Position numbers and translations under genes: made by a program. A stretch of 64,000 bases of DNA. It comes from Costertonia aggregata. GTDB taxonomy: Bacteria; Bacteroidota; Bacteroidia; Flavobacteriales; Flavobacteriaceae. Each line of letters begins with the position of its first letter. The first letter of the stretch is position 1. Below are positions 1 through 43,475 of this stretch, piece by piece. Location of the stretch: NCBI RefSeq assembly GCF_013402795.1, contig NZ_CP058595.1, positions 2,644,001-2,708,000 of the forward strand, given 5' to 3'. The notes below the pieces were generated by a model. The model did no database searches, was not told the DNA's origin, and was given only the letters and a program-made list of their open reading frames with translations.

Positions 1-1
1 A

Positions 2-1354
2 CAGGATTTGACAAAAGAACTTGAAAAGGTAAAAAAAGAGGTCGAGGCTGCAACAGAGGTAATAAAGGCCAGAAACCAAGAAGTGATAGACGGCTTCAAC
101 GCTGCGATAGATAAGGTCAAGGAATTTGGTAAGGAAATAGCGGAAGATGCCAAAAAGGCGCAAGCCATAGCCAACCAAAGGGCTTTGGCTGATAAAAAGG
201 AACGTGAGTTGATAGTTGCAAGGGCTAGGGCTGATAGGAACGCTGCGGATTTACGGGAAAAAGCCGTAAACAAGGAGAAATTCAGTATCGAAGAGAGAAT
301 AAAGTTTCTTGAACAGGCAGCAAGGATTGAAACGGACATTACAAACGCTGAAATATATGCTGCCAAGCTTAGAAGGGATGCAAAGATTGCCGAGAATGCC
401 CTCGCAAAGTCTACCAAAGAGGATTTGGACGAACAGGCCGAACTTACCGCAAAGGTAATCGAACTGGAAACCGCCAGATTGAACAAGCAGAAGGAATTGA
501 CATCCGAAACCTTGGCACTAAAGGCAGAGGAAAAGGCTCTAAGGGATGCAGAACTTGCAGCATTGGAGGCACAAGCCGAAAAAGAAAGGGAAATCGAACG
601 TGCCAGACTGGAATCCATTGATAACATCCGTAAGGAATACAGGGAAAAATTGGAGGATTTACAGGCAGAGGATGAACAGGCTAAACTTGATTTGGAAGAG
701 CAAAGAAAATTAGCGGAACTGGAAGCCTTGAACGCCTCGGAAGAACAGAAAATTGAGGTTAGAAGGTACTACGATGAATTGCAGACCCAACTTGAAAAGG
801 AGCAAAGCGATGAAAGAATAGCAAATGCGTTGGCCGAAAAAGAGGCTAAAGCGCAAATATTCAATGCACAAGCTGATTTGGCTATACAATTCGGTCAGTT
901 CCTTCAACAGATGGGAGAGGAAAACAAGGCACTGGCCATTACGGGAATCATTGTTGAACAAGTTGCATCAGTTGCCAGAATTATATCCAATACTGGAATT
1001 GCCAATGCGAAAGCAGTAGCAGCTTCCCCCTTGACCGCTGGACAGCCTTTTGTTACGCTCAATAGTGTTAGTGCTGGTCTATCCATTGCTTCATCGGTCG
1101 CCAGTGCTGCAAAGGCAATAGGGAAATTAGGTGGAGGTGGTGGAGGTCTACAAAGGGATAATCCCAACGGTGGGAATTCTGCTCAACCGATAGCACCAGA
1201 ATTCAATCTTATCGGCCAAGGTGGAATAAACCAAGTTGCACAATCATTGAACCAACAGGGAAAAACGCCTTTAAAAGCCTATGTGGTGGGTAAGGAGGTA
1301 GATACTCAACAGGAGTTGGATAGGAACAGGCGTGTAACGGCAACCTTTGGCTAA
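2..1354 (+). CDS. Tail tape-measure-like coiled-coil protein, 5' truncated by window edge
   Basis: The frame is open to the first bases of the window, so the TTG at position 8 is probably internal and the protein is longer. Residues 1 to about 290 are almost continuous charged heptads rich in Ala, Glu, Lys and Arg, consistent with a long coiled coil. A more hydrophobic Ala/Ile/Val/Ser-rich stretch follows (about 295-370), then a six-glycine run and a short C-terminal tail with KAYVVGKEVDTQQELDR. That ending resembles the C-termini I associate with tape-measure proteins of Bacteroidota phages, which set tail length and are ejected with DNA. A minor virion or ejection protein is the alternative. 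It lies 33 bp upstream of the protease gene, an unusual position for a tape measure. Confidence 0.6.
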   Translation, partial: QDLTKELEKVKKEVEAATEVIKARNQEVIDGFNAAIDKVKEFGKEIAEDAKKAQAIANQRALADKKERELIVARARADRNAADLREKAVNKEKFSIEERIKFLEQAARIETDITNAEIYAAKLRRDAKIAENALAKSTKEDLDEQAELTAKVIELETARLNKQKELTSETLALKAEEKALRDAELAALEAQAEKEREIERARLESIDNIRKEYREKLEDLQAEDEQAKLDLEEQRKLAELEALNASEEQKIEVRRYYDELQTQLEKEQSDERIANALAEKEAKAQIFNAQADLAIQFGQFLQQMGEENKALAITGIIVEQVASVARIISNTGIANAKAVAASPLTAGQPFVTLNSVSAGLSIASSVASAAKAIGKLGGGGGGLQRDNPNGGNSAQPIAPEFNLIGQGGINQVAQSLNQQGKTPLKAYVVGKEVDTQQELDRNRRVTATFG

Positions 1355-1387
1355 AGTCCACTTTTGACGGTTTTGCATTATTAGGGT

Positions 1388-2491
1388 ATGGAACTTTACG
1401 AAGTACAATTCGACCCGAAAAAAGATACTGGTATTTATGGAATATCGGTAGTGTCCGACCCTGCGATGGAAGGTTTTTTCGTAGCGTTGAACAAAGATGG
1501 GAAACCCGTACCTAACGAAATACAATTGTCGGAGGTAAGCAAGGAGCAAAGGATTCTTTTAGGCGTTGTGGCAATACCAGATAAACCTATTTACAGGAAT
1601 CAAGATGGTAAGGAGTTCTACATAACCTTTCCAAGTGAAACAATCAAACTGGGCGCACATTCCTTTTTAAAGAATCAGTACAACAACAATTCCAGTATCG
1701 AACATGAGGTAAAACTATCAGGTGTTTCAGTGGTGGAATCTTGGATTGTGGAAGATACCGAAAACGATAAATCGAACATACACGGTCTGAAAGCCCCGAG
1801 AGGTTCATGGATAGTTTCAATGAAGGTCGATAACGATGAACTCTGGAACGATTATGTGAAAACTGGAAAAGTAAAAGGCTTTTCATTGGATGGTCTATTC
1901 AGCCTAAACAAACTTGAACTTAAACAAAAATCTATGAGTGATAACAACCAATCGATAGTGGCAGAAATAAAAAAAGGATTTGCCGAATTAAAGAACATAT
2001 TCAGCCCTAAACCAGAAACCAAAGTTAAATTGGCACAAGCCAAATTAGCCGATGGGGAAACCGTTGTTGAATTTGATGGGGAGGAAATAGAGGTCGGTAC
2101 ACAACTTTTTATAGTAAGTGAAGAAGGTAGTATACCAGCACCAGACGGACAACACGAACTGGAAAACGGTATGTTGGTAAGCGTTACCGAGGGAATTGTT
2201 TCAGAGATAATGGAAAAAGAAGTCGATGAGGAAATCGAGGCATCCAAGGACAATCAAGAATGGGAGGCTCTAAAAGAGGCTTTTAAGATTCTCGAAGCCG
2301 AAATGAAAACCGCAAAAGAAGGTTTTGAATCTTCTTTATCCGAAAAGGATAATGAAATAGCCGAATTGAAAACACAACTTTCGGCTACCCCAGCGACAGA
2401 ACCAAAAAAACATACATCGGTCGAACTTTCCACCGAACAGCCCAAAACTTCAAGAGAAAGAATAAAACTAGCATTACAACAAAACAAATAA
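1388..2491 (+). CDS. Prohead protease with scaffold-like C-terminus (XkdF-type)
   Basis: This is a putative phage head-maturation serine protease that processes capsid and scaffold during assembly. The N-terminal 175 residues match the XkdF-like protease pattern: His106 in SSIEHEVKL, then ESWIVEDTENDKSN, then WIVSMKVDNDELWNDYVKTG and Ser166 in GKVKGFSLDG. His106 and Ser166 are the expected catalytic pair. Residues about 180-367 are acidic and helix-rich, with a coiled coil near 280-340, like a scaffolding domain that the protease would remove. A protease-scaffold fusion directly upstream of the capsid gene is a common phage arrangement. The stop lies 3 bp before the capsid ATG, so the two are translationally close. 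Confidence 0.85.
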   Translation: MELYEVQFDPKKDTGIYGISVVSDPAMEGFFVALNKDGKPVPNEIQLSEVSKEQRILLGVVAIPDKPIYRNQDGKEFYITFPSETIKLGAHSFLKNQYNNNSSIEHEVKLSGVSVVESWIVEDTENDKSNIHGLKAPRGSWIVSMKVDNDELWNDYVKTGKVKGFSLDGLFSLNKLELKQKSMSDNNQSIVAEIKKGFAELKNIFSPKPETKVKLAQAKLADGETVVEFDGEEIEVGTQLFIVSEEGSIPAPDGQHELENGMLVSVTEGIVSEIMEKEVDEEIEASKDNQEWEALKEAFKILEAEMKTAKEGFESSLSEKDNEIAELKTQLSATPATEPKKHTSVELSTEQPKTSRERIKLALQQNK

Positions 2492-2494
2492 ATT

Positions 2495-3397
2495 ATGCCT
2501 ACTACACAAACAGTTAATTCAAATTACACTGGCGAAGCTGCTGGTGCAATCATAGGTCAAGCATTCAAGGAAACTAGTACAGTCCAAAGGGGATTGGTTA
2601 CGTTCATGCCTAATGTAAGGTACAAATTGAGCCTTAAAAAAATTCAATACACCAACGGTAAAACAGACTATTCTTGTGGTTTTACCCCAGCAGGTGCAAT
2701 CGTACTTTCTGAAAACCAATTGACCATCAAGGAAATCAAGAACGACCTTGAAATCTGTAAGGACACTTTCAGGGCTACATGGGATGGTCTGGACAATGAT
2801 ATGATGGAAGCTATCGAAGTTGAAGTATTGGCTAACCATTCGGAGGCGTGGGATACTGAAATCTGGACTGGCGACAGTTCAACTGATGGGGAATTTGGCG
2901 GAATCATACCACAATTGGAAGCCGATGATGATGTAATCAAAGCCAACAACGGTATCGTGCCATTGGAAGCAGCTATTACAAAGGAAAACGTATTGGCAGA
3001 ATTGGAAAAAGTTACTGCTGCATTCCCTGTAACCATTAGAAAAAAGCCAGATTTTAAAGTATTGGTTTCTGCAAACGTTGCGGATGCATACGATAAATAC
3101 TTGGTATCTAACGGAATCCAAAACGGAAACGGTGGTGGTTCTATGCAGAGCGTTTATTCCAAATATACTTTGGAAGAAGTCGATACTTTGCCAGACAATA
3201 CAATTATAGCTTATCAAACTAGAAACGTTGTAGTTGCATCAAGTAAATCCAACTCTTCAAACGAACTTACATTGGTAGATACCAGCGAAACCTTGTTGGA
3301 TGGAAATATCAGAGGTAAGGTAGTCTACGGTGCTGATACTGGATATTACAGAGGCGATGAAATAGTTTACTACGTATCGACCGAAGCGGTAGCCTAA
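2495..3397 (+). CDS. Major capsid protein
   Basis: The 300-residue product has the size and position of a major head protein: it directly follows the protease-scaffold gene and is followed by a terminator. The N-terminus (TGEAAGAIIGQAFKETSTVQ) and the ending with TGYYRGDEIVYYVSTEAVA fit capsid proteins of Bacteroidota phages as I know them. The middle is acidic with many Asp/Glu and aromatic residues, and there is no signal peptide or membrane segment. An HK97-type fold is inferred from context, since no short motif defines that fold. The dedicated terminator suggests the transcript is expressed as a high-level unit, as expected for the most abundant virion protein. Confidence 0.8.
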   Translation: MPTTQTVNSNYTGEAAGAIIGQAFKETSTVQRGLVTFMPNVRYKLSLKKIQYTNGKTDYSCGFTPAGAIVLSENQLTIKEIKNDLEICKDTFRATWDGLDNDMMEAIEVEVLANHSEAWDTEIWTGDSSTDGEFGGIIPQLEADDDVIKANNGIVPLEAAITKENVLAELEKVTAAFPVTIRKKPDFKVLVSANVADAYDKYLVSNGIQNGNGGGSMQSVYSKYTLEEVDTLPDNTIIAYQTRNVVVASSKSNSSNELTLVDTSETLLDGNIRGKVVYGADTGYYRGDEIVYYVSTEAVA

Positions 3398-3426
3398 TTG
3401 CCCAAATCTTAACTATTAACTAAATC

Positions 3427-3463
3427 AAGGGATTGGATTGAATTTAATCCTTTCCCTTTTTTT
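3427..3463 (+). terminator. Intrinsic terminator after the capsid gene
   Basis: A hairpin with AAGGGA and GGATT on the left arm and AATCC and TCCCTT on the right arm, around a short AT loop, is followed directly by a run of Ts. It separates the capsid gene from the tail-tube-like gene and probably gives partial termination, because the downstream virion genes have no obvious promoter. Confidence 0.75.
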
Positions 3464-3481
3464 CATAATACCCAAATCAAT

Positions 3482-4015
3482 ATGTGTTTATTAAATTCAG
3501 GTAGGAACGTACCACAATGCAAAGATTCGATTGGTGGGCTAAAAAATGCCTACTTTATCAACTTCTTGGAAGATGCCTTTACGGTGGAGAATGCAGAGGC
3601 AACGGCAATTAACGCTGGTGTGGCCGAAGTTTTCAAATACGGTTTAAGAAATGACGGCAACAATCTTTCCGAAAGTATAGTATCGGATAAAAATACAGGT
3701 ACAACAACCAACACCCAAACATTAACGCTTGCATTGGCCAAACTCGATAAGGACACTGCCTTACAGGTCGATTTGATGAGCAAGGGTAGACCGATAATCA
3801 TAGTACAGGATAGAAACGACAACTATAAAATTGTTGGACTATCGGAAGGATGCGACCTTACAGGTTCTAGCATAGATTCTGGTGGGGCTAGAAGTGATTT
3901 TTCTGGTTTCAACCTCACATTGACAGCTATGGAATCATCCGTTGCACCATTTTTGGATTCTGCAACGATTACAGCGTTGGAAGCCTTGGTAAGTGCTACC
4001 AATATAGCAGCCTAA
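3482..4015 (+). CDS. Tail-tube-like virion protein, copy 1
   Basis: The 177-residue product is paralogous to the protein at 6747-7316. Shared landmarks in the same order are a start with LL-SG, then CKDSIGGLK near the N-terminus, a DRNDNYKIVGL segment in the middle, and a C-terminal RSDFSGFNLTLTAMES segment followed by PF. I associate this family with tail-tube or related tail proteins of Bacteroidota phages, but that role is inferred from size and position and is not proven by a motif. It sits between two terminators, immediately after the capsid gene, which fits a highly expressed structural protein. The C-terminus is an Ala/Thr-rich tail absent from the second copy. Confidence 0.6.
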   Translation: MCLLNSGRNVPQCKDSIGGLKNAYFINFLEDAFTVENAEATAINAGVAEVFKYGLRNDGNNLSESIVSDKNTGTTTNTQTLTLALAKLDKDTALQVDLMSKGRPIIIVQDRNDNYKIVGLSEGCDLTGSSIDSGGARSDFSGFNLTLTAMESSVAPFLDSATITALEALVSATNIAA

Positions 4016-4059
4016 CCTAAACAACCACCCGTACACTTTTCGGGAAATACGGTTTTATA

Positions 4060-4087
4060 CCCTTGCAAATCCTTGCAGGGGTTTTTT
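4060..4087 (+). terminator. Intrinsic terminator after tail-tube-like gene 1
   Basis: CCCTTGCAA and TTGCAGGGG form a 9-bp stem (one T-G wobble) around an ATCC loop, followed by six Ts. Together with the terminator after the capsid gene it isolates this gene as its own transcriptional segment. Confidence 0.8.
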
Positions 4088-4130
4088 GTGTCAAATTCTT
4101 CCACAATACCACAATACGCATTAATACAGT

Positions 4131-4436
4131 ATGAACATATTACAGCCTATATCAACACCCCAGACAATGGTTTTCATACCAAGGTTCGAAGCCGATACGG
4201 TCAATCTTTCACTTTATGATGAACTGAATGATAGAACCTACCCCTATCAATTGGCAGCTATATATTTGGATGGACTTATGGAAGTGGAACTAACTCATAC
4301 TTTCAGCGAGGGCGAGATGTACAGCTTCGAGGTATCGGACAATGGGGATAATCTAATGTATAGGGGCAAAATATTCATTACCGAACAAACCGACCTACAA
4401 AACTACTCAACACACCCAGATTTCCTTTACGATTAA
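4131..4436 (+). CDS. Small virion-associated protein of unknown function
   Basis: The 101-residue acidic protein begins with a segment containing PISTPQTMVFIPR and contains alternating hydrophobic strands (LSLYDELNDRTY, VELTHTFSEGEMYSFEVSD), suggesting a small beta-sandwich. It ends with TEQTDLQNYSTHPDFLYD. I have seen similar short proteins in Bacteroidota phages between a tail-tube-like gene and the portal, but I know of no assigned function. It has no signal peptide or membrane segment, which is consistent with a virion or assembly role. It ends 9 bp before the portal start codon and is probably co-transcribed with it. Confidence 0.6.
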   Translation: MNILQPISTPQTMVFIPRFEADTVNLSLYDELNDRTYPYQLAAIYLDGLMEVELTHTFSEGEMYSFEVSDNGDNLMYRGKIFITEQTDLQNYSTHPDFLYD

Positions 4437-4445
4437 ACCTACCCA

Positions 4446-6194
4446 ATGGACAAAAAGAAAGATAACAATGTTTTAATCAGCAACAATATTGCCGTACTAC
4501 AACTCAACAATTATACAAAGCCTATCATCAAGGAGGTATCTTCGAAGGATTGGGTTTTGAACGGGGATGAAAACAGTCATTTTCAATATCTCATCGATAG
4601 GAAAAACGGTTCTCCCACTAACTCGACCATTATAAAAAAATACATCAGTTTCATTTATGGAAAAGGGCTTACCGTCAATGATGATAAGGATGTTCTAAGA
4701 TTGTTCCCGAAAAAGGAGGTCAGGAAAATAGTGTCTGATTATAAACTTTTCGGTTCTGCAACGTTTCAGGTAATCTATTCAAAGGGAAAGGGTGCTTTAA
4801 GAAAGGTCACTGGTGTTTTCCATATTCCGAGAGAAACCATTGCACCGAACAAAATGAACGATAAAGGGGAGATATTGACCTATTGGTATTGCAAGGATTG
4901 GACTAATCCGAAAAAGAACGTTCCAGAACCGTACCCAGCCTTTGGCACTTCGAAAGAGGCTATCGAAATCTATGAGATAAAGCCATATGAAGCTGGAAAG
5001 CAATATTATGCAAGTGCCGATTATGAAGCTGGTCTGGAATACTGCCAACTCGAAGAGGAAATAAGCCATTATTCCATATCGCACATACAGAACGGATTGA
5101 GTGCTGGATGGGTAATAAATCTCAATAACGGTATTCCCGAAAAGGAATTACAGGATGAAATGGAAAGAGGCATTATGCAAAAGGTTACTGGTTCTAGTGC
5201 TGCTGGTAACGTTATACTATCCTTCAACAATAGTACGGACACCAAAACAACGGTAGAACCCTTTCCGCAAAACGCCAGTCACAAACAATGGGAGTTCTGG
5301 ACACAAGAAGCCAAAACGCAAATAATGGTTTCCCATGAGGTTACGAACCCGATTTTGTTCGGTCTGGAAAAAACAACTGGTTTTGGTAACAATGCCGAAG
5401 AAATCGAAACATCTGCAAAATTCCTTTACGGTACTGTAATCATGCCTTATCAAGAAACTATTCTGGACGCTTTTCAGGAGGTTGCAATGTACAATGGTAA
5501 AGAAGTCGAATTTGAGTTCAAGCCCCTGATAGATTTTTCAAAGAACGATGGAACAACTACTGGTACTGGCGAAAATGTTGAACTATCATCGACAAGTGGA
5601 GATGTAAAAAAAAAGTCCAGTCCAGATTTAGAACTTGACAATTTTACGGCAAATGCCCTAATAGATTCGGGAGAGGATGAATCTTCGATGAAGGGTTACG
5701 AAGTGGTACATGAGTCAATCGTATCGGAAGAACCCACTGATTTGTTCGAAACAAAACTGGCAACGGTAGTAACTGGAAAACCAAATACCAAGTCCGAACA
5801 GGACAATCCATTGTTCAGGGTAAGGTACATATACAGCCCACAAACCGTAAGCAATAATTCACGGGAGTTTTGCCGTAAAATGGTCGGTGCTGGTAAGGTT
5901 TACAGACGTGAGGATATAGAAGCTGCTGGGCAAAAAGTGGTCAATGCTGGACTGGGAGCGAACGGTTCGGACACCTATTCGATATGGAAATATAAAGGAG
6001 GTGTAAACTGCAAACACTTCTGGCAAAGAAGGGTCTATTTAAGAACAAACAACACAATAATAACCGTAAACGAGGCGAGAAGGAAAATTCTTGAACTAGA
6101 GCCAGACCAAAGGGATTTGGTAAGGCTGCCTACGAACGAAAAGGAAGTAGCCCAATCCGCTTCTTCATCAAACAATTTTTGGAAAATAAATTAA
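4446..6194 (+). CDS. Portal protein with a fused C-terminal domain
   Basis: Portal proteins form the dodecameric DNA gate of the head. Residues 1 to about 375 have portal features: an N-terminal clip-forming region, a FIYGKGLTV segment, an AAGNVILSFN segment, and the helical hallmark EKTTGFGNNAEEIETSAKFL followed by YQETILDAFQEV. After a low-complexity linker (about 380-445) comes a separate domain of about 130 residues with NPLFRVRYIYSPQTVSNNSREFC, VYRREDIE and GGVNCKHFWQRRVYLRT. This second part recalls the Arg/His/Cys-rich minor-head (MuF-like) domains of other phages; that link is inferred. At 582 residues it is longer than a plain portal. The connector gene follows after 4 bp. Confidence 0.8.
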   Translation: MDKKKDNNVLISNNIAVLQLNNYTKPIIKEVSSKDWVLNGDENSHFQYLIDRKNGSPTNSTIIKKYISFIYGKGLTVNDDKDVLRLFPKKEVRKIVSDYKLFGSATFQVIYSKGKGALRKVTGVFHIPRETIAPNKMNDKGEILTYWYCKDWTNPKKNVPEPYPAFGTSKEAIEIYEIKPYEAGKQYYASADYEAGLEYCQLEEEISHYSISHIQNGLSAGWVINLNNGIPEKELQDEMERGIMQKVTGSSAAGNVILSFNNSTDTKTTVEPFPQNASHKQWEFWTQEAKTQIMVSHEVTNPILFGLEKTTGFGNNAEEIETSAKFLYGTVIMPYQETILDAFQEVAMYNGKEVEFEFKPLIDFSKNDGTTTGTGENVELSSTSGDVKKKSSPDLELDNFTANALIDSGEDESSMKGYEVVHESIVSEEPTDLFETKLATVVTGKPNTKSEQDNPLFRVRYIYSPQTVSNNSREFCRKMVGAGKVYRREDIEAAGQKVVNAGLGANGSDTYSIWKYKGGVNCKHFWQRRVYLRTNNTIITVNEARRKILELEPDQRDLVRLPTNEKEVAQSASSSNNFWKIN

Positions 6195-6198
6195 GCGA

Positions 6199-6744
6199 AT
6201 GACAACAATACTGATTTCAGCAAGCGACTTGACCAAGCGAACACCTATGGCTGGGAACATAGACCCCAATAAATATACATACTGCATTCGTGAAGCCCAG
6301 ATATTCGTTATCGAACCTATTCTGGGTACTAAACTCTACAAAAAGATAGTAGCCGATTATGAGGCCAATACATTGACTGGGGATTATTTGGAACTAATGG
6401 AAAACTATGTTAAACCAATTTTGATATATACAGTAAGTGCCGAATTTATTTTGGTTCATTCCTACAACGTACAGAACGGGGGTATCTTCAAAAACTCCCC
6501 AGAAAACAGTGAACCAGTAAATAAATCAGAGGTTGACTTCTTGGTACAGAAACAGCACAACAAAGCGGATGCCTACATAGAACGTATGAAAAAGTTCCTA
6601 TCCAGTATCGAACTTCCCGAATACAACACAGTACAGGAGAATAACTATGATACCTATCCAGATAAAACCTTGGATTTCACAGGGGGCTGGAAGTTGGGAA
6701 GTTATTCAAAAGGTAACGATTTCCTTAAACCAAATGAAAGGTAA
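6199..6744 (+). CDS. Head-tail connector-like protein (DUF6712-type)
   Basis: The 181-residue protein begins with a start like those of DUF6712 and head-tail adaptor proteins (TILISASDLTKRTPMAGNID), then has helix-rich segments containing IEPILGTKLYKKIV and ENYVKPILIYTVSAEFI. Known members sit next to portal genes and are thought to form the ring joining portal to tail. Here it lies 4 bp after the portal gene and 2 bp before the second tail-tube-like gene, so the three genes form one tight unit. The C-terminal 50 residues are Asn/Asp/Tyr-rich and look less ordered. Assignment to DUF6712 is from memory of the pattern. Confidence 0.6.
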   Translation: MTTILISASDLTKRTPMAGNIDPNKYTYCIREAQIFVIEPILGTKLYKKIVADYEANTLTGDYLELMENYVKPILIYTVSAEFILVHSYNVQNGGIFKNSPENSEPVNKSEVDFLVQKQHNKADAYIERMKKFLSSIELPEYNTVQENNYDTYPDKTLDFTGGWKLGSYSKGNDFLKPNER

Positions 6745-6746
6745 CA

Positions 6747-7316
6747 ATGGCACTTTTGACATCGGGCAAACGATACGGATGTAAAGATTCTAACGGAGGT
6801 ATAAAGAAAATATACTTGGCTGCCTTTGTTCCTTATAGCAGAAATCTGTTTGGATTTGATGGGGTGTTACTTACCTCGATACCTACAACCTTTGTTTATG
6901 CCTTTGAAATGATAGGGGATAACAACAGTTTCCAACAAAGCTATGACGGTATCGGCTATTCCCAGACCCTCAATGTTGAATTCAAACGTCAGGATGTTGA
7001 TACCGCAATACAGATGCAATCGCTCAACTACATCGAGTTAAGGGCTTTGATACTGGATAAAAACGATAACTATCTAGTATTTGGACTGGATAATGGTCTA
7101 ACGAGCGATTCACTGGAAATACTAACAGGAAACAGCCGTAGTGAATTTAACGGTTACAGGATGATATTTACTGGTAAGGAGAAACATACATCCCCTTTTG
7201 TTTTAGACCCTTTCAACAACGGTTTCATAGAGGTGGACGAAGAGGATGATTTCTACCAGTTCCAGAACCTCGAAGCCTTTATGTTCCAAAATGGGGAACA
7301 ATACTATTTCAATTAA
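6747..7316 (+). CDS. Tail-tube-like virion protein, copy 2
   Basis: This 189-residue protein is the diverged paralogue of 3482-4015. It keeps LLTSGK and CKDSNGGIKKIYL at the N-terminus, a DKNDNYLVFGL segment in the middle, and RSEFNGYRMIFTGKEKHTSPF near the C-terminus. It differs by an acidic, aromatic C-terminal extension with EVDEEDDFYQFQNLEAFMFQ. The paired copies suggest one major tube protein and a second specialised version, for example a tail tip or terminator ring; which is which cannot be decided here. The gene is packed between the connector and the tail fibre, with only 14 bp to the next start. Confidence 0.55.
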   Translation: MALLTSGKRYGCKDSNGGIKKIYLAAFVPYSRNLFGFDGVLLTSIPTTFVYAFEMIGDNNSFQQSYDGIGYSQTLNVEFKRQDVDTAIQMQSLNYIELRALILDKNDNYLVFGLDNGLTSDSLEILTGNSRSEFNGYRMIFTGKEKHTSPFVLDPFNNGFIEVDEEDDFYQFQNLEAFMFQNGEQYYFN

Positions 7317-7330
7317 AACAAAGAAAACCA

Positions 7331-9271
7331 ATGAGTGTATTAACAAGTAAAACCGAACTATCATTCGTAACCGATTTGGATTGGTTTCATGTAGTGGACA
7401 TCAGTGATAACACTGGCAGCCCACAAGGAACATCCAAGAAAATCAGAAGGGGCAATATCCTTTTGGGATATACTGGCTTCGATTCTAGGTACTATACGGA
7501 AACTGAGGTCAACAACTTCTTTTCGGGTACTGTACCTATCGTTGGATATAACAGAGCGGATTGGGATAACGCATTACAACCTGATGGGGATGGTTCACAG
7601 CTTACCAATTTACCCCAAGATTGGGATGGTGTATTGAATGGTCGAAATGTTCAGGTTACAAATTTTCAGGAATTGTACCTACATGGTTACTACGATGGGT
7701 CTGACATTAGCGCAACAAGTGATGCCCCATATATAAATATGCTAAATAATACACTATCAAAGAGCATACAGTTAGGGGTAGGTCAAATTTCTTTGACAAT
7801 TGATGGTGCTAGTATTTATACTGACGATAGCATAGTTGCAAATAATTTTGTTGGTAACGGTAGTAATCTTACTGGGGTAGAACTTTTGTCCAACAAAGGT
7901 CAGGCAAACGGTTATGTACCCCTTAACGGTTTTGGGCTAATCGATTCACAATACTTACCCGATTCTTTAGATGAAATTTTGGAATATGCGGATTTGGCTT
8001 CTTTTCCAACAACGGGAGAAACAGGTAAACTGTATGTTGCACTAGATACGAATTATGTTTACAGATGGTCAGGCTCGACCTTTATCCAAGTAGGGGGAGG
8101 GCAAATACCAGTGGATTCCGTTTTCGGACGTACAGGTGTCATTACTGCACAATCATCAGATTATTCAGCATTTTATTTAGGTCTAACCGATAAAGCTACG
8201 GATTCTGAACTACTTGACGGGCTGAATTCTACACAATTCATTAGAAGTGACCAATCGGACGCTATGAATGGAACACTAACGGCACAAGGTCTAACATTTA
8301 ACCAACCCCTTAATTTTTTCCAGCCCACTACCCACAATGATAAGATACTATTTATCGGTGGTAATGGTTTAGGCGATAGGGATTGGAGTAATATATTCCT
8401 TTATTCTGGTGGTGTATTCAGAATTAATGACAATGATATATGGCACGCTGGTAACGATGGTTCGAATAGTGGACTTGATGCCGATTTGTTGGATGGTCTA
8501 CAAGGTTCACAGTACTTAAATACCAGTTCAACAGCACAAACAAAGTCAGGTTTATTAAACCTTGATGCTTTAAGAGTAAAAGGAGCTAGTGGAAGATTTA
8601 GGAGTGTGTCCGATGGTACTAACGTTATTGAATGGGGTTTAGATAATGGAACACGACAATCCTATTTGGGTAATGTTTCAGGTCAATGGAAATGGCAAAT
8701 TGAATCTGGGGATTGGTATTTTACGGATGGTTCAGCAAATAGAGTATCTATTGGTAGAATCTCTGGGAATATATCAACAGTTGGCAATATAACTTCCAGT
8801 GACAATATATTGGCTAACGGGTCAAGCTCCGATATAAGTGTTGAGGCGAGAAGAGATACGTTAAGATTCTCTAGGCTTAGTGCAAACGGTTCTGGGGGAG
8901 CGTTAGTACTTTCGGACGATTCGATATCCGCCACAATTATTAGGGGCTACGGAAATTCTGATTTTTACAGTACCATAACGGCAACCAACTTTATATTAAG
9001 GTCTGATGAAAGGTTAAAGAATAGTATAGAACCTTATAAATCAAAGCCGATAAATGTACATTGGAAAACTTTCGTATTGGATAGCGATAAAACCGAAAGA
9101 GTACAGTTGGGGGCTATTGCACAAGAACTGGAAAAAGAGCATCCCGAATTTGTAATCACAAGTGATAAAGATGAAAAGTCAATTGCCTACATAGATTTGT
9201 TGATTGCCAAGAACGCTGAATTGGAATCGAGGATTGAAAAACTTGAAAGTCTAATCCTAAACCAAAAATAA
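7331..9271 (+). CDS. Tail fibre/spike with C-terminal S74 intramolecular chaperone
   Basis: The 646-residue host-recognition fibre has a Gly/Asn/Ser/Asp-rich body with repeated fibre motifs: GDGSQLTNLP and GNGSNLTGVEL near residues 95 and 180, and ELLDGLNSTQF and DLLDGLQGSQY further on. The last 90 residues are a peptidase S74 domain. They begin with SDERLKNSIEPYK, in which Ser558 and the following Lys form the expected self-cleavage site, and contain LGAIAQELEKEHPEF and a final heptad helix. Such domains trimerise the fibre and then cut themselves off. The N-terminus presumably attaches to the tail. The stop codon overlaps the start of the next gene by one base (TAATG). Confidence 0.88.
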   Translation: MSVLTSKTELSFVTDLDWFHVVDISDNTGSPQGTSKKIRRGNILLGYTGFDSRYYTETEVNNFFSGTVPIVGYNRADWDNALQPDGDGSQLTNLPQDWDGVLNGRNVQVTNFQELYLHGYYDGSDISATSDAPYINMLNNTLSKSIQLGVGQISLTIDGASIYTDDSIVANNFVGNGSNLTGVELLSNKGQANGYVPLNGFGLIDSQYLPDSLDEILEYADLASFPTTGETGKLYVALDTNYVYRWSGSTFIQVGGGQIPVDSVFGRTGVITAQSSDYSAFYLGLTDKATDSELLDGLNSTQFIRSDQSDAMNGTLTAQGLTFNQPLNFFQPTTHNDKILFIGGNGLGDRDWSNIFLYSGGVFRINDNDIWHAGNDGSNSGLDADLLDGLQGSQYLNTSSTAQTKSGLLNLDALRVKGASGRFRSVSDGTNVIEWGLDNGTRQSYLGNVSGQWKWQIESGDWYFTDGSANRVSIGRISGNISTVGNITSSDNILANGSSSDISVEARRDTLRFSRLSANGSGGALVLSDDSISATIIRGYGNSDFYSTITATNFILRSDERLKNSIEPYKSKPINVHWKTFVLDSDKTERVQLGAIAQELEKEHPEFVITSDKDEKSIAYIDLLIAKNAELESRIEKLESLILNQK

Positions 9272-9690
9272 TGGCAGTTCCCAATACAACTACTTTTTCG
9301 CTTTTAGATGTTTGCAATGAAATTGGTTTAACTGGTTCGAACAGAACTTTATCAAATTGTTTTGGTAGTGCCATAGATAGCGGTTTTGACAATGCCCATA
9401 GAGGTTCAAAGGATAGACTTTTAAACTTTAGGAACTATCAACATTCAATATCTACAAGTAGCCTTTTACTGGTCGATGAAAAAAGTGCTTCCAACGCATG
9501 TGCTAGATGGTCTGACACACCAACATCGAGAATTGTTAGGTATATACCCAGCGGACAAAGCTTCAATAATGCTACTGCTTTATATTCAAATAGTAACGGT
9601 ACGACATTAGCCCCAGCCGATTGGTATTCGAACGGTGTAGTTGCGAGGGCTTGGAACGGTTCAACATTTACATTTACCCAACCATGTTAA
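9271..9690 (+). CDS. Tail-associated protein with C-terminal WNG-type domain
   Basis: The 139-residue protein starts translationally coupled to the fibre gene. Its N-terminal half contains TFSLLDVCNEIG and DNAHRGSKDRLLNFRNYQ, a pattern I associate with tail components of Bacteroidota phages. The C-terminal half (about 75-139) ends in ADWYSNGVVARAWNGSTF followed by a terminal Cys. That block aligns without gaps over 42 residues (92-133) to residues 62-103 of the prophage lipoprotein at 12279-12596, with 17 identities. Its position suggests a fibre accessory, tip or receptor-binding role. The exact function is unknown. Confidence 0.65.
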   Translation: MAVPNTTTFSLLDVCNEIGLTGSNRTLSNCFGSAIDSGFDNAHRGSKDRLLNFRNYQHSISTSSLLLVDEKSASNACARWSDTPTSRIVRYIPSGQSFNNATALYSNSNGTTLAPADWYSNGVVARAWNGSTFTFTQPC

Positions 9691-10259
9691 GATTCAAGAA
9701 ATACATACCCTATGTAATCATTGGTATACTGATAACCATACTTCAATGCAAGGATAAGGAGGTCGTTACAATTGAAGTTCCCGAAAAGAAAGGCAGCTTT
9801 GAGGTAATACAACCAAAACCAGTGGTTGAATATGACACGATTATCGAGCAGGGGAAACCCAGAATCGTTGAGGTAGAAAACCCTATCAATAAAACTTTGT
9901 TGGACAAATACGTTTCGTTGAAGGATTCGATTGATAGGATGGATTTAGTAAAGGATGCCATTACAGAAAGAACATACGTAGAAACTTTTATCGATAGTAA
10001 TCAAACTATCAAAGTCAAATCAAAAGTAATCGGCACTTTGAAGAGCCAGACGGTTGATTATACCATTTACGAAAGGCAGATACCTATTAATCAAAAGAAA
10101 CCTAAATACAGCCTTTATACTGGCGTTAATACCACAGTTCGCCCGATTGTGTCAATACAACCCAATCTAACCTTACAGACCCCTAAAATGCTCTACACGG
10201 TAGGATATAATCTACAAACGGAAGCTTTGACTTTAGGGGCATCCATTAAATTATTTTAG
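9684..10259 (+). CDS. Membrane-anchored protein of the lysis region (spanin-like candidate)
   Basis: I chose the ATG at 9684 over the longer frame because translation from there gives a clear N-terminal membrane anchor (YIPYVIIGILITILQC), while upstream codons encode an unlikely Cys/Tyr-rich start. It overlaps the end of the previous gene by 7 bases. After the anchor come a polar Pro/Val/Glu-rich stretch, a helical section with KYVSLKDSIDRMDLVKDA and a beta-rich C-terminus ending in LGASIKLF, a Phe-terminal strand reminiscent of outer-membrane proteins. Together with its place just before the endolysin, this suggests a protein spanning the envelope, perhaps a one-piece spanin. No family is recognised with confidence. 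The Cys after the anchor has Gln before it, so a lipobox is doubtful. Confidence 0.5.
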   Translation: MLRFKKYIPYVIIGILITILQCKDKEVVTIEVPEKKGSFEVIQPKPVVEYDTIIEQGKPRIVEVENPINKTLLDKYVSLKDSIDRMDLVKDAITERTYVETFIDSNQTIKVKSKVIGTLKSQTVDYTIYERQIPINQKKPKYSLYTGVNTTVRPIVSIQPNLTLQTPKMLYTVGYNLQTEALTLGASIKLF

Positions 10260-10262
10260 CTC

Positions 10263-11009
10263 ATGTCATTTAGTAATACCACCACAACGATATTCCAAAA
10301 AGTAACTCGTAAACAGGCTTTTATATTGGCAATCATATCAGCCCTTTTATTGGGCTTTTATTTTGGCGCACCACCAGTTATTGAATACATAGACAATAGC
10401 GATGAAAGAAAGGAACAGCGTTATCTAAGGGAACTTCAACAGAAAAAGGAATTTGAAAGGAAACTGGATTCTATCGATGAGGTACGGAGAATCGAAAAAT
10501 CGGAACTGTTCATCTACAAGAACAATCAAATCAACGACCTAATTAGCTACCTCGAAAGAAGGTTGCCCGAAAGTTCCCATATAACCATTTGGAACGTACA
10601 TAATCATGGGGGAGTACCTAAAACGGGCAACGATGCCGAAATGAGCGTACTGTATACCGTTGATAACGTAAAAGGTGTCAATATCAAAAAGGAGTATCTC
10701 AATTATCCCTTGCATTCGGGCTACTCGGAACTAGCCTATCAAATGATTGTAAGGGGCGGTAAGGGTTTCTATGTAAAGGATGTTTCAAAGAACAGGGCAA
10801 TTTACATAGGGGAAACAAAGAACAATATGGATTATGTAGGCACAAAATCCATTTATGGGGCTTGGATAAAATCATCCAGCACTGCTACATATTATATTTC
10901 AGTTTCTTTTCCAGTAGTAGATGGAATGCAGTATGGAGGTTACGGGTATTCGGAAACGCTGATATTGAACGCTAGAAACAAATTAATCAATCTATTGGAC
11001 ACGGAATGA
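10263..11009 (+). CDS. Membrane-anchored coiled-coil protein of the lysis region
   Basis: The 248-residue protein has one hydrophobic helix at about 18-38 (AFILAIISALLLGFYFG), then a highly charged helix (about 45-95) with KEQRYLRELQQKKEFERKLD that should form a coiled coil. A globular alpha/beta domain follows, with ITIWNVHNHGGVPKTGND, a hydrophobic core around SVLYTVDNVKG, and a C-terminal segment with YYISVSFPVVDGMQYGGYGYS. The latter two recall GAF-like sensory folds, but no family is firmly recognised. It starts 3 bp after the previous gene and overlaps the endolysin start by 4 bases (ATGA), so it is in the lysis operon. A holin-associated or antiholin-type role is possible but is only inferred from context. 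Confidence 0.5.
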   Translation: MSFSNTTTTIFQKVTRKQAFILAIISALLLGFYFGAPPVIEYIDNSDERKEQRYLRELQQKKEFERKLDSIDEVRRIEKSELFIYKNNQINDLISYLERRLPESSHITIWNVHNHGGVPKTGNDAEMSVLYTVDNVKGVNIKKEYLNYPLHSGYSELAYQMIVRGGKGFYVKDVSKNRAIYIGETKNNMDYVGTKSIYGAWIKSSSTATYYISVSFPVVDGMQYGGYGYSETLILNARNKLINLLDTE

Positions 11010-11458
11010 GAACAAGCAATATAGGAATACAACATATAAAGGATTGGGAACAGCTAAGGTTGAAAGCCTATAAGCCCCTACCTAATGATAGGTGGACTAT
11101 CGGATATGGCAATACATTTTATGAAGATGGAACACCAGTTAGGGAAAATGATGTCATTACCGTTGAAGAGGCAGAAAAACTGTTAAGGATTATATTGGCC
11201 AAATTTGAAAACAGCGTAAATCGATACGTTACTTCGAACATAAACCAATCACAGTTCGATGCCCTTGTTTCATTTGCCTATAACGTTGGTTCACACAATC
11301 TGAAACGTTCGACATTGTTAAGGGTAATCAATTACGACCCGAACGACCTAAAGGAAATAGAAAGGCAGTTCATGCGTTGGGTAAGGTCGAAGGGAAGAAT
11401 TATCAAGGGGTTGATAAATAGAAGGAAATCGGAGTTTGAACTTTATGCTTCAAACTAA
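11006..11458 (+). CDS. Endolysin, T4/P22-type lysozyme (GH24)
   Basis: The 150-residue muramidase cuts peptidoglycan to release phage. It has the GH24 catalytic pattern: Glu15 in IKDWEQLRLKAY, a candidate Asp28 and Thr31 in NDRWTIGYGNT. It also has the QSQFDALVSFAYNVG segment and a basic C-terminal part with FMRWVRSKGRIIKGLINRR, both typical of the family. There is no signal peptide, so export must rely on a holin. Its ATG overlaps the upstream stop (ATGA). An intrinsic terminator follows, ending the late operon. Confidence 0.92.
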   Translation: MRTSNIGIQHIKDWEQLRLKAYKPLPNDRWTIGYGNTFYEDGTPVRENDVITVEEAEKLLRIILAKFENSVNRYVTSNINQSQFDALVSFAYNVGSHNLKRSTLLRVINYDPNDLKEIERQFMRWVRSKGRIIKGLINRRKSEFELYASN

Positions 11459-11506
11459 TCAAATCTACTCAATATCGAAACATAAATATTCAAAATTGAC
11501 CAAGAG

Positions 11507-11535
11507 AACCCCTACCATAATTGGTAGGGTTTTTT
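11507..11535. terminator. Terminator between the lysis operon and the cargo operon
   Basis: CCCTACCA and TGGTAGGG form an 8-bp stem with a TAAT loop and are followed by six Ts on the plus strand. It ends the late operon and lies against the 3' end of the convergent nuclease gene, so it may also stop some minus-strand transcription. Confidence 0.85.
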
Positions 11536-12133
11536 ATTCTAAAACCCCTTTGTGTTTTATAAAGTAAATAAGGTCGGTTGAAAAAGTAACTAAATTGTAA
11601 ATCGTCAATACAAAACTGATTAAAAAAAAGATTGCGTTTAGCCCTTCATCTATTTGGACTAGTTCCCATCCAAATACGAAGGATAAATAAGCCCAAAACA
11701 CAGTAGCAAATAACGTTATCCATTCTCCTTTGTGAAAATATCTAAAGAACAAATACTTGTAATACTTGTTTCTACGGTTTCGAAACTTTTCAACATTAAA
11801 TAGTTGTATCATTTTTGTATGAAAAGCATAGTCCAAAATACCTAATTCATGAGGGTATATAATAATTGTTGGCAACCCGTTCCTGAAATATACTTTTGTT
11901 TTTTCATCGTATTCAAATCTCTTCTCTTTAGTAGAATTATACAATCCATAATATTCAACATATACATCTACATTTTGCAAATAGAAATCTACCCTTCTAT
12001 GTTTTTTGGAGTCATAGCGTAAGTTTTTTAAAACAAATTGCTCTTGGTATCGTATATGAGAATTATCAAAGTAGAATTTGATATAATCTTCTTCACGTGT
12101 AGGTTTGTAAGATTTATACTTTTTACTATCCAT
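11534..12133 (-). CDS. Membrane-anchored PD-(D/E)XK-like nuclease, prophage cargo
   Basis: The 199-residue protein joins two unlike halves. Residues 15-110 match the pattern of small restriction-endonuclease-fold domains: Glu31 in RYQEQFVL, Asp49 and Glu60 in RRVDFYLQNVDVYVEYYG, then KTKVYFRNGLPTIIIYPHELG. Known relatives read PDFYLP--IYIEYFG followed by a K-rich strand and IYP. The second half carries two strongly hydrophobic helices at about 139-157 and 166-186 joined by a short acidic loop, ending in a basic tail. A nuclease fixed to the inner membrane could act on incoming phage DNA; that is inference. It is the last gene of a minus-strand trio, 38 bp after the 34-residue membrane protein. 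The usual catalytic Lys is not in the standard place, so activity is not certain. Confidence 0.6.
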   Translation of the reverse strand: MDSKKYKSYKPTREEDYIKFYFDNSHIRYQEQFVLKNLRYDSKKHRRVDFYLQNVDVYVEYYGLYNSTKEKRFEYDEKTKVYFRNGLPTIIIYPHELGILDYAFHTKMIQLFNVEKFRNRRNKYYKYLFFRYFHKGEWITLFATVFWAYLSFVFGWELVQIDEGLNAIFFLISFVLTIYNLVTFSTDLIYFIKHKGVLE

Positions 12134-12171
12134 CTGTTTTGTCGCTTATTTATACAAAGAAGTAAAGATAT

Positions 12172-12276
12172 TCAGAAAGGATAGGTTTCATACAAATAGA
12201 AACTGGTTAAAACCAAAAAGAGCAGTACAATGATAACGAACGACCAAAACAGAATATCCTTTATCTTCTGTTTCAT
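12172..12276 (-). CDS. Small single-helix membrane protein (34 residues), prophage cargo
   Basis: This short gene lies between the lipoprotein and the nuclease. It starts with ATG two bases after the lipoprotein stop (TGA-TT-ATG) and ends in TGA. The product has a basic start (MKQKIKD), one long hydrophobic helix (about residues 8-28, containing FWSFVIIVLLFLVL), and a short aromatic tail ending YETYPF. The near-overlapping start implies translational coupling. Size, topology and position suggest an accessory of the neighbouring membrane and lipoprotein genes, for example an assembly or toxin-like peptide. There is no family assignment. Its reality is supported by the spacing and codon pattern but is not proven. 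Confidence 0.5.
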   Translation of the reverse strand: MKQKIKDILFWSFVIIVLLFLVLTSFYLYETYPF

Positions 12277-12278
12277 AA

Positions 12279-12596
12279 TCAGTATATAAAGGTTTGACCG
12301 TTCCATAATCTTACAATCCTACCATTGTAGTAATAGTTAGCTTCCGCATATTCAGTACCATCATATACTTTACAGAGTAAATCCGATGTTTCGAATTCCG
12401 AATTCGAAGGCATAAACAATGCACTTACCTTATTTTCATACATCTTTATGGCAGCCTCTTGTGTTTTTCCATAAGCGAGTTTTACGCCAACCGTTTCAAT
12501 CGGTTCTAGTTGCGTTTCAAATTCCATTTCTTTCTCACATGAGATACTAATAATACTTAATGCCAATACAACAGCTACTTTAAATAGGTTTTTCAT
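12279..12596 (-). CDS. Prophage lipoprotein with a WNG domain shared with a tail protein
   Basis: The 105-residue protein has a signal peptide (KNLFKVAVVLALSIISIS) ending at Cys20, followed by EKEMEFE, an acidic start typical of Bacteroidota lipoproteins that may reach the cell surface. The position before Cys is acceptable, although the -3 residue is Ser rather than Leu. The mature part ends with ANYYYNGRIVRLWNGQTF, and residues 62-103 align without gaps to residues 92-133 of the tail protein at 9271-9690 (17 of 42 identical). It is the first gene of the minus-strand cargo trio and starts only 12 bp from the radC remnant on the other strand. A surface role such as masking a phage receptor is inferred. 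Confidence 0.65.
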   Translation of the reverse strand: MKNLFKVAVVLALSIISISCEKEMEFETQLEPIETVGVKLAYGKTQEAAIKMYENKVSALFMPSNSEFETSDLLCKVYDGTEYAEANYYYNGRIVRLWNGQTFIY

Positions 12597-12608
12597 AATT
12601 TTGATTTA

Positions 12609-13094
12609 ATGTTATACATCGAAAAAAACTACACATTAGTAGAAAAGGCAAAGGCCGTTACCATTGCCGCCGCATTGGAGATCGGTAGGCGCAGACGGGG
12701 CGAGGAGGTATTGAAGATAAGCAAGATAAAAAGTAGTCAAGACGCTTTTGAGCTATTATTGCCCAGTATGGGAGATTTACAACACGAGGAATTTTGGATT
12801 TTATATTTAAACAATGCGAACAAGGTATTGTTGTCCTCGCAATTGAGCAAAGGTGGGTTAACAGGTACCTTGGTAGATGTGCGCTTGGTAATGAAACAGG
12901 CTTTGGAGCTAGGTGCTGTGGGTCTCATTTTAGCACATAACCATCCTTCGGGAACCTTAAAACCAAGCCCGGCCGATATTGAGGTTACGCAAAAAATAAA
13001 ACTAGCTTCCGAAGCTTTGGATATAAAAGTGCTGGATCATTTAATCATAACGCAAAAAGAATATTATAGTTTTGCGGAACATAGCCTTTTATAA
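12609..13094 (+). pseudogene. radC: radC C-terminal part (JAB/MPN domain), 5' end replaced by prophage
   Basis: Full RadC is about 225-235 residues, with an N-terminal helix-hairpin-helix region followed by a JAB1/MPN metal-binding domain. Only 161 codons remain. The first 13 come from prophage DNA, and the RadC-like sequence starts at AKAVTIAAALEIG. The whole JAB domain survives, including the zinc motif His110-x-His112-x7-Ser120-x2-Asp123 within AHNHPSGTLKPSPAD. An ATG supplied by the prophage keeps the frame open, so a shortened protein might still be made; whether it functions is unknown. The deacetylase-like gene starts directly after its stop, so the two were an operon. The cellular role of RadC is itself poorly defined despite its DNA-repair name. 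Confidence 0.85.
12640..12660. other. Prophage-chromosome attachment junction inside radC
   Basis: The radC reading frame here starts with a short unrelated segment (MLYIEKNYTLVEK) and then, from codon 14 at 12648, becomes recognisable RadC (AKAVTIAAALEIGRRR). In intact RadC this block is preceded by a helix-hairpin-helix part with GIGE just before AKA. The crossover therefore lies at or just before GCAAAGGCCGTTACC. The matching half-site must be at the left prophage end, outside the window, so the core repeat cannot be delimited. Confidence 0.75.
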
Positions 13095-43420: not shown

Positions 43421-43475
43421 GGGATTGTAGTTACGATTATCGAAGGATTAAGCCTTAATTCATAATCACAATCCC
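43421..43475 (+). promoter_or_regulatory. Three-tier hairpin leader of rpsD (candidate S4 autoregulatory RNA)
   Basis: GGGATTGT (43421-43428) pairs with ACAATCCC (43468-43475). Inside it GATTAT (43435-43440) pairs with ATAATC (43462-43467), with an AGTTAC bulge on the left only. AAGG (43443-43446) pairs with CCTT (43453-43456) at the tip. The RNA lies immediately before rpsD. In E. coli S4 represses this operon by binding a leader; this hairpin is a likely equivalent, by inference. Confidence 0.7.

Follow-up and report, generated by a model that had tools for sequence, protein, structure and literature searches.

A predicted membrane-anchored nuclease of the PD-(D/E)XK type encoded near the end of a Costertonia aggregata prophage

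A recently demonstrated means of discriminating foreign from own DNA is to cut DNA at the membrane while it is entering, as in the system SNIPE (PMC13190303). As described there, SNIPE lacking the anchor was toxic and cleaved host DNA; when anchored, it cuts phage DNA during injection. A single helix is predicted for 59% of SNIPE homologues and a pair for 7%, with none for the remainder (PMC13190303); two are predicted in the protein described here. In a review, SNIPE, Zorya and Kiwa are given as membrane-placed systems (PMC12904381). In the open-licence papers surveyed we found no nuclease of the Vsr or PD-(D/E)XK type described with such a membrane architecture, which is not proof of absence.

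We analysed a window of 64,000 nucleotides from the genome (3.91 Mb in a single contig) of Costertonia aggregata, a member of the Flavobacteriaceae; other loci are cited by L numbers. The gene at 11534-12133 on the reverse strand encodes 199 aa counted from ATG, in the position and orientation given in the initial annotation. Its product holds a PD-(D/E)XK nuclease core (residues 13-112; 11798-12097, reverse strand) followed by a predicted two-helix membrane hairpin (residues 137-196; 11546-11725, reverse strand). The gene is AT-rich, with a G+C content of 0.288 versus 0.400 in the prophage part of the window (1-11533) and 0.391 in the flanking chromosome (13001-64000).

Nuclease core and hydrophobic tail

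The initial annotation had proposed a small nuclease fold around Asp49 and Glu60 from the letters alone. Both residues are at the positions named, and RVDFYL, VEYYG and IIYPHELG are all present in the 199-aa sequence. Asp49 and Glu60 are also kept in all five full-length homologues; in fact, E15, D49, E60 and K78 are invariant in the six family members (the window protein and these homologues). A superfamily test found the motif I Glu, motif II Asp and motif III Glu all present, as E15, D49 and E60. Position 62, which fills the place of the E-x-K lysine, is Tyr in all six members.

Related sequences were sought in viral contigs, where protein searches found no member of this family, with the DNA pattern D-F-(Y/F)-L-x6-(V/I/M)-E-Y-(Y/F)-G. 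This gave 28 loci, 27 of which resemble the nuclease domain by eye. One locus with a 28-aa frame (L064) was dropped and ten were duplicate fragments; the 17 viral rows left, the window protein and L002 together made an alignment of 19 rows. Asp49, Glu60 and Tyr/Phe62 are fixed by the pattern in the viral rows, and Glu15 and Lys78 are free in it. Position 78 is Lys in 19 of 19 rows, and Glu15 is present in 18, the sole miss being a frame without that region. An identical 91-aa nuclease frame without the Glu15 region occurs in three viral contigs (L071, L072 and L078) and is possibly truncated.

The structure of the domain was predicted with AF2 from these 19 sequences (pLDDT 86.3, pTM 0.72), and mean pLDDT is above 90 in each block of residues 11-120. 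A model from two sequences (the window protein and L002) was too weak for use (pLDDT 57.6, pTM 0.40). The modelled core runs in the order helix 13-24, strands 29-36, 45-52 and 57-61, helix 69-84, strand 89-92 and helix 94-112. E15 is placed in the first helix, D49 in strand 45-52, E60 in strand 57-61 and K78 in helix 69-84, 16 residues past the place of the E-x-K lysine. In some PD-(D/E)XK families the active-site lysine can migrate to the motif IV helix (PMC1913061), and K78, in the helix after the third core strand, would represent this variation. Glu15 and Lys78, neither of them named in the initial annotation, are candidate catalytic residues in addition to Asp49 and Glu60.

Comparison with VIA-align gave the catalytic domain of I-Bth0305I (3r3p) as the best named match (Z 9.3, 92 of 97 residues, rmsd 3.1), followed by 3hrl (Z 8.5) and Vsr (1cw0, Z 8.2). 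These three named nucleases lie just above 8, below which Z may mean little, and a best Z of 7 to 8 is typical of models that, like this one, lack a clear Foldseek match. The highest score belongs to a Toxoplasma mitoribosome chain (9i05, Z 9.8); 3r3p is less than 1 Z below it, and a second mitoribosome chain (9g6k, Z 9.1) ranks among the nucleases. Rows covering residues 136-199 alone are helix pairs and were set aside. More than 90 residues align with nuclease folds of the EDxHD / Vsr type. Foldseek against the PDB found nothing at E <= 0.001, the first row being PvuRts1I (E 0.17). Against BFVD there are 23 matches at E <= 0.001, some named DUF559, restriction enzyme or homing endonuclease.

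Sequence profiles agree with the model. A profile of the 17 viral nuclease-domain fragments alone scores the window ORF at 36.6 bits (E 4e-10), part of which is circular because the fragments were found by a pattern containing D and E. This ORF alone exceeded the threshold of that profile among 276 window frames of at least 60 aa, and 1,000 shuffled versions of the window protein scored 8.9 bits at most. Free of such circularity are the matches of the window protein by itself to two PADLOC models, PDC-S69 over residues 45-110 (E 4.6e-6) and HEAT_CxxC_PDDEXK over residues 26-98 (E 1.1e-4); six of six family members match both. All six viral nucleases scanned also hit both models, with E values as low as 2e-17 for PDC-S69, so the PADLOC label marks the domain and no role. 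The 19-sequence profile also picks up T7 endonuclease I among PDB sequences (E 8e-4); in the alignment the E, D and E of the two coincide, and the lysine of T7 endonuclease I falls opposite Tyr62. The PD-(D/E)XK assignment follows from the Z values taken together with the topology, the residues and the sequence profiles. It bears out the core proposed at first and refines it, in that the fold most resembles the Vsr / EDxHD homing-endonuclease branch. Neither outcome named at first as a refutation was encountered: the predicted structure does not lack the core, and the homologues do not lack Asp49 and Glu60.

Annotation databases recognise little of the protein. The window protein has no match in Pfam (up to E 5) or NCBIfam and only partial ones in PHROG, among them PHROG 22655 (E 2e-4), a group without annotated function. 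Two further PHROG profiles match relatives and not the window protein: phrog_559, called HNH endonuclease (five of six members), and phrog_9084, 'homing endonuclease' (three of six). Over the six members, Pfam gave weak matches to PvuRts1I-like_N (two members, best E 0.005) and DUF6526 (one member, E 0.26), and NCBIfam gave three unrelated single-member matches (E 0.097 to 0.18). There was no match by phmmer with the window protein as query. A second profile (A1) found only reaction-centre M subunits among PDB sequences (4 rows, best E 0.96), via the membrane part, a matter of composition. The nuclease domain also occurs in phage homing-type endonucleases and in UvrD-type helicases.

The two membrane helices proposed at first are recovered as model helices 137-161 and 165-196, and a hydrophobic two-segment tail is present across the family. 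Both segments exceed the hydropathy cut (19-residue mean >= 1.6) in five of six members; in the window protein only the second does, the first falling below the cut yet forming a helix in the model. Net charge changes from +7 ahead of the hairpin to -2 in its loop, and the tail carries +1. By the positive-inside rule, this charge pattern would place both protein ends, the nuclease included, in the cytoplasm. Helices, hydropathy and charge predict a protein anchored in the inner membrane with a cytoplasmic nuclease. The hairpin is also the less conserved part, with a mean pairwise identity of 0.30 versus 0.54 for the nuclease.

Prophage setting and relatives

The gene lies close to the right-hand end of a prophage of about 32.9 kb (a length obtained by subtracting junction positions), in keeping with the prophage setting first proposed. 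This prophage carries a large serine recombinase and splits radC. The 5' part of radC, which lies upstream of the window (L015:17489-17752, UPF0758_N), is followed by the recombinase (Resolvase, Recombinase and Zn ribbon domains), and the 3' part is at 12609-13094 on the forward strand (Pfam RadC). The radC frame stops directly after GEAKA on the left and resumes with KAVTIAA on the right, with junctions near L015:17744 and window position 12651. Thus, radC is interrupted in the lysogen. The prophage also encodes a terminase (L016), an S74-chaperone protein and a lysozyme; a portal-like protein reached 28.8 bits, under the Pfam cut-off of 39.1. In the one related prophage whose lysis region was read (L052), that region has no such nuclease gene.

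The nuclease gene runs opposite to the lysis genes and converges with the phage lysozyme gene at 11006-11458 on the forward strand (Pfam Phage_lysozyme, E 3.8e-39). A terminator-like hairpin lies between the two at 11510-11529. In a consensus scan of 11400-12750, three terminator-like sites were found versus 0.6 expected, two of them representing this same hairpin, once per strand. Promoter-like sites of the types covered by the scan numbered three versus 6.3 expected, a count not above chance. The position, AT-richness and convergence with the lysozyme gene would fit the usual picture of a cargo gene expressed in the lysogen. Against Rfam at the gathering score, the whole window gave a single match, to an S4-Flavobacteria ribosomal protein leader at 43435-43467 on the forward strand, and no intron.

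Only two ORFs, both on the nuclease strand, stand between the nuclease gene and the right end of the prophage. The one closer to the prophage end, at 12279-12596 and with no further ORF beyond it on this strand, encodes a putative lipoprotein of 105 aa without a Pfam match, with a signal-like start and ISISC recognised by eye. In tandem between it and the nuclease gene is a mini ORF at 12172-12306 (44 aa, or 34 aa from the second ATG) with a single helix, which may be a small partner or a chance frame. Neither is supported as a conserved partner of the nuclease, as one homologue (L012) starts 35 bp from an integrase gene, which leaves no room. By eye, the C-terminal stretch of the lipoprotein ORF (YYNGRIVRLWNGQTFIY) is like that of a phage protein at 9271-9690 on the forward strand (YSNGVVARAWNGSTFTF), which suggests that the two may share a small domain.

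Full-length relatives were identified by a single-sequence search in five of 396 other genomes sampled from the family, and are 39-42% identical to the window protein. Mariniflexile is a named relative. With its own genome the count is six of 397, consistent with the original remark that fusions of a nuclease to a membrane part are uncommon. A sample of 395 genomes of the order gave two of the same homologues and no new full-length member, and a sample of 60 relatives gave the own copy only; the counts are not independent, because the samples overlap. The own copy was likewise the only one among the matches listed for a profile search (E 1e-10) of 370 genomes of the phylum. With profile A1, the matches listed include 13 genomes. 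Six of these have full-length members; five (L023-L027) match via the nuclease part of other proteins and two (L028, L029) via the membrane part of unrelated proteins. Absences from the profile A1 and phylum searches, which scored no more than 8 candidates per genome in the matches listed, are less firm than those from the single-sequence search of 397 genomes. L008 and L009, from the order sample, are other proteins by eye, and L004, the same contig stretch as L002, was counted once. Plasmid records gave no match, and phage records gave only weak ones (12 Staphylococcus phages, E 0.1 to 0.9, in some of which the annotation reads intron-encoded nuclease).

All five homologues (L010-L014) are near tRNA genes, tRNA-Asp in L010 and tRNA-Asn in the other four, at a distance of 167-242 bp in four loci and 2,114 bp in L014. 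A tyrosine integrase gene or its N-terminal remnant is present in four of the five: L012 and L014 encode integrases with all three domains, and L010 and L011 have remnants. None was recognised within the 18 kb read of L013. In three loci the homologue starts beside the integrase gene or remnant and is divergent from it. Four of the five tRNA sites adjoin the same protease gene by eye (one was tested: Peptidase_M50), so the five loci are not independent; one favoured site or common descent may account for this neighbour.

The clearest island is in L010 (L010:3912-8257), where 4,252 bp from repeat to repeat are bounded by a pair of identical 94-bp repeats, each of which takes in the tRNA end. 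Besides the nuclease, its ORFs of at least 60 aa comprise the integrase remnant and a GmrSD-like gene, the latter being the only other full ORF. The island is apparently recent, judging by the repeats, yet has no working integrase of its own. No comparable repeat was found around the tRNA genes of L011, L012 and L013 (18-19 kb read); in L014 the tRNA end recurs over 15 bp at 3682. In L012 (L012:1194-7092), genes for a caspase-domain protein, a GmrSD-like protein and DUF2971 (PDC-S31) stand beside the integrase and nuclease genes; this is likely a defence island. Nine neighbouring proteins of L010, L012 and L014 were scanned against each of PADLOC and Pfam (eight common to both); in L011 the integrase remnant alone was scanned. 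Each database matched four of its nine, the same four proteins, all of L010 and L012, and the L014 neighbours (three proteins in Pfam, two in PADLOC) had no defence label. Restriction- or defence-like genes are near two of the five homologues.

Possible role at the membrane

The gene and its homologues are AT-rich cargo on different mobile elements. The presence of the homologues in or beside mobile islands suggests that the protein may cut foreign DNA at entry, and a role against invaders is the most likely one. The charge pattern, the residues and the gene neighbourhood are the grounds for the predicted topology, the presumed nuclease activity and the putative role against competing phages. 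The full reading that we prefer, to which we give about half of our confidence, is of a stand-alone nuclease of the Vsr/EDxHD branch that is tethered by its C-terminal hairpin, carried as cargo by mobile elements and active on incoming DNA, which it would cut in a metal-dependent manner.

The hairpin would hold the nuclease at the inner membrane with its catalytic domain in the cytoplasm. Tethering would keep a poorly selective nuclease off the nucleoid and place it where phage or conjugative DNA enters. A lysogen or island carrier could thereby exclude competing elements, as in SNIPE, which has a different nuclease and, in addition, a sensing domain. Recognition at the entry site without a sensing domain might depend on placement alone, on contact via the hairpin, or on a preference for free ends or branched DNA; the last is conceivable because of the likeness to T7 endonuclease I. 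A more specific proposal, which we hold tentatively, is that mobile elements of this bacterial family carry a minimal entry-site nuclease, of the Vsr/EDxHD type and joined to a membrane hairpin, that separates self from non-self by place alone, without the sensor of SNIPE or the partners of Zorya and Kiwa.

Among the alternatives, the one that survives best, although we consider it unlikely, is that the protein processes the DNA of its own element, as a membrane-tethered junction or flap nuclease that aids excision, replication or transfer. Two observations agree with this: the profile matches T7 endonuclease I, which resolves Holliday junctions, and three homologues are divergent from an adjacent integrase gene or remnant. 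However, the nuclease is kept beside truncated integrases (L010, L011) and where none is recognised (L013, 18 kb), it accompanies two unrelated types of recombinase (serine and tyrosine), and its membrane anchor has no evident use in excision.

Next in rank, and also doubtful, is a suicide effector that attacks host DNA once infection disturbs the membrane, so that cell death stops phage growth. Two-helix membrane parts are common in effectors, and the caspase and GmrSD-like genes near the L012 homologue fit the defence islands that house them. In the ORF lists of the six loci, however, no recurrent sensor or signal-producing partner was recognised by eye, and tethering would hold the nuclease away from host DNA.

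It is quite improbable that the protein is catalytically dead, with a fold that serves solely for nucleic-acid binding or for inhibition of phage entry. Tyr62 in place of the motif III lysine would be expected of such a protein, but none of E15, D49, E60 and K78 varies in the family, as would be expected of an active site. Least credible of all is a homing endonuclease, or a remnant of one, that mobilises its own gene: the fold is near I-Bth0305I and PHROG endonuclease profiles match relatives, but no DNA-binding domain was found, Rfam identified no intron in the window, and none of the six loci is inside conserved phage genes, all being near tRNA genes or the ends of elements.

Should this protein of 199 residues act like SNIPE, with an unrelated nuclease and no sensing domain, the entry-site principle has evolved more than once, and its simplest form becomes open to study. 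Otherwise, the protein shows what else a membrane-tethered nuclease serves.

Comparison with known systems

T7 endonuclease I has the region of E, D and E in common with the window protein (E 8e-4), and its E-x-K lysine corresponds to Tyr62. The nuclease domain of PDC-S69 and HEAT_CxxC_PDDEXK is common to all six family members, but the window protein covers only the C-terminal part of these models (219-283 of 289 and 209-274 of 288, respectively), and the hairpin lies outside. Their N-terminal parts are not mentioned in the relevant passages of PMC8565338.

The EDxHD / Vsr-type nucleases (3r3p and 1cw0) share their fold with the window protein (Z 9.3 and 8.2), a likeness at the level of the catalytic-domain fold. 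No elongated DNA-binding region of the I-Bth0305I type was found in the window protein, whose sole other part is a predicted membrane hairpin and which matches no Pfam domain up to E 5.

In outline the window protein would be like SNIPE if, as helices, hydropathy and charge predict, it joins a membrane anchor to a cytoplasmic nuclease in one protein. SNIPE has a GIY-YIG nuclease, an N-terminal anchor and DUF4041, whereas the window protein has another nuclease fold, a predicted C-terminal anchor and no sensor domain like DUF4041 recognised by Pfam. Pfam includes models for both DUF4041 and GIY-YIG, and neither matches the protein up to E 5; thus, it is not a member of SNIPE.

The UvrD-type helicases (L074, named by PHROG, and L026, L027 and L062, named by eye) also contain this domain, and the order of its E, D, E and K is unchanged. 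In these proteins the domain is inserted inside the helicase, whereas in the window protein it stands alone with a predicted membrane anchor.
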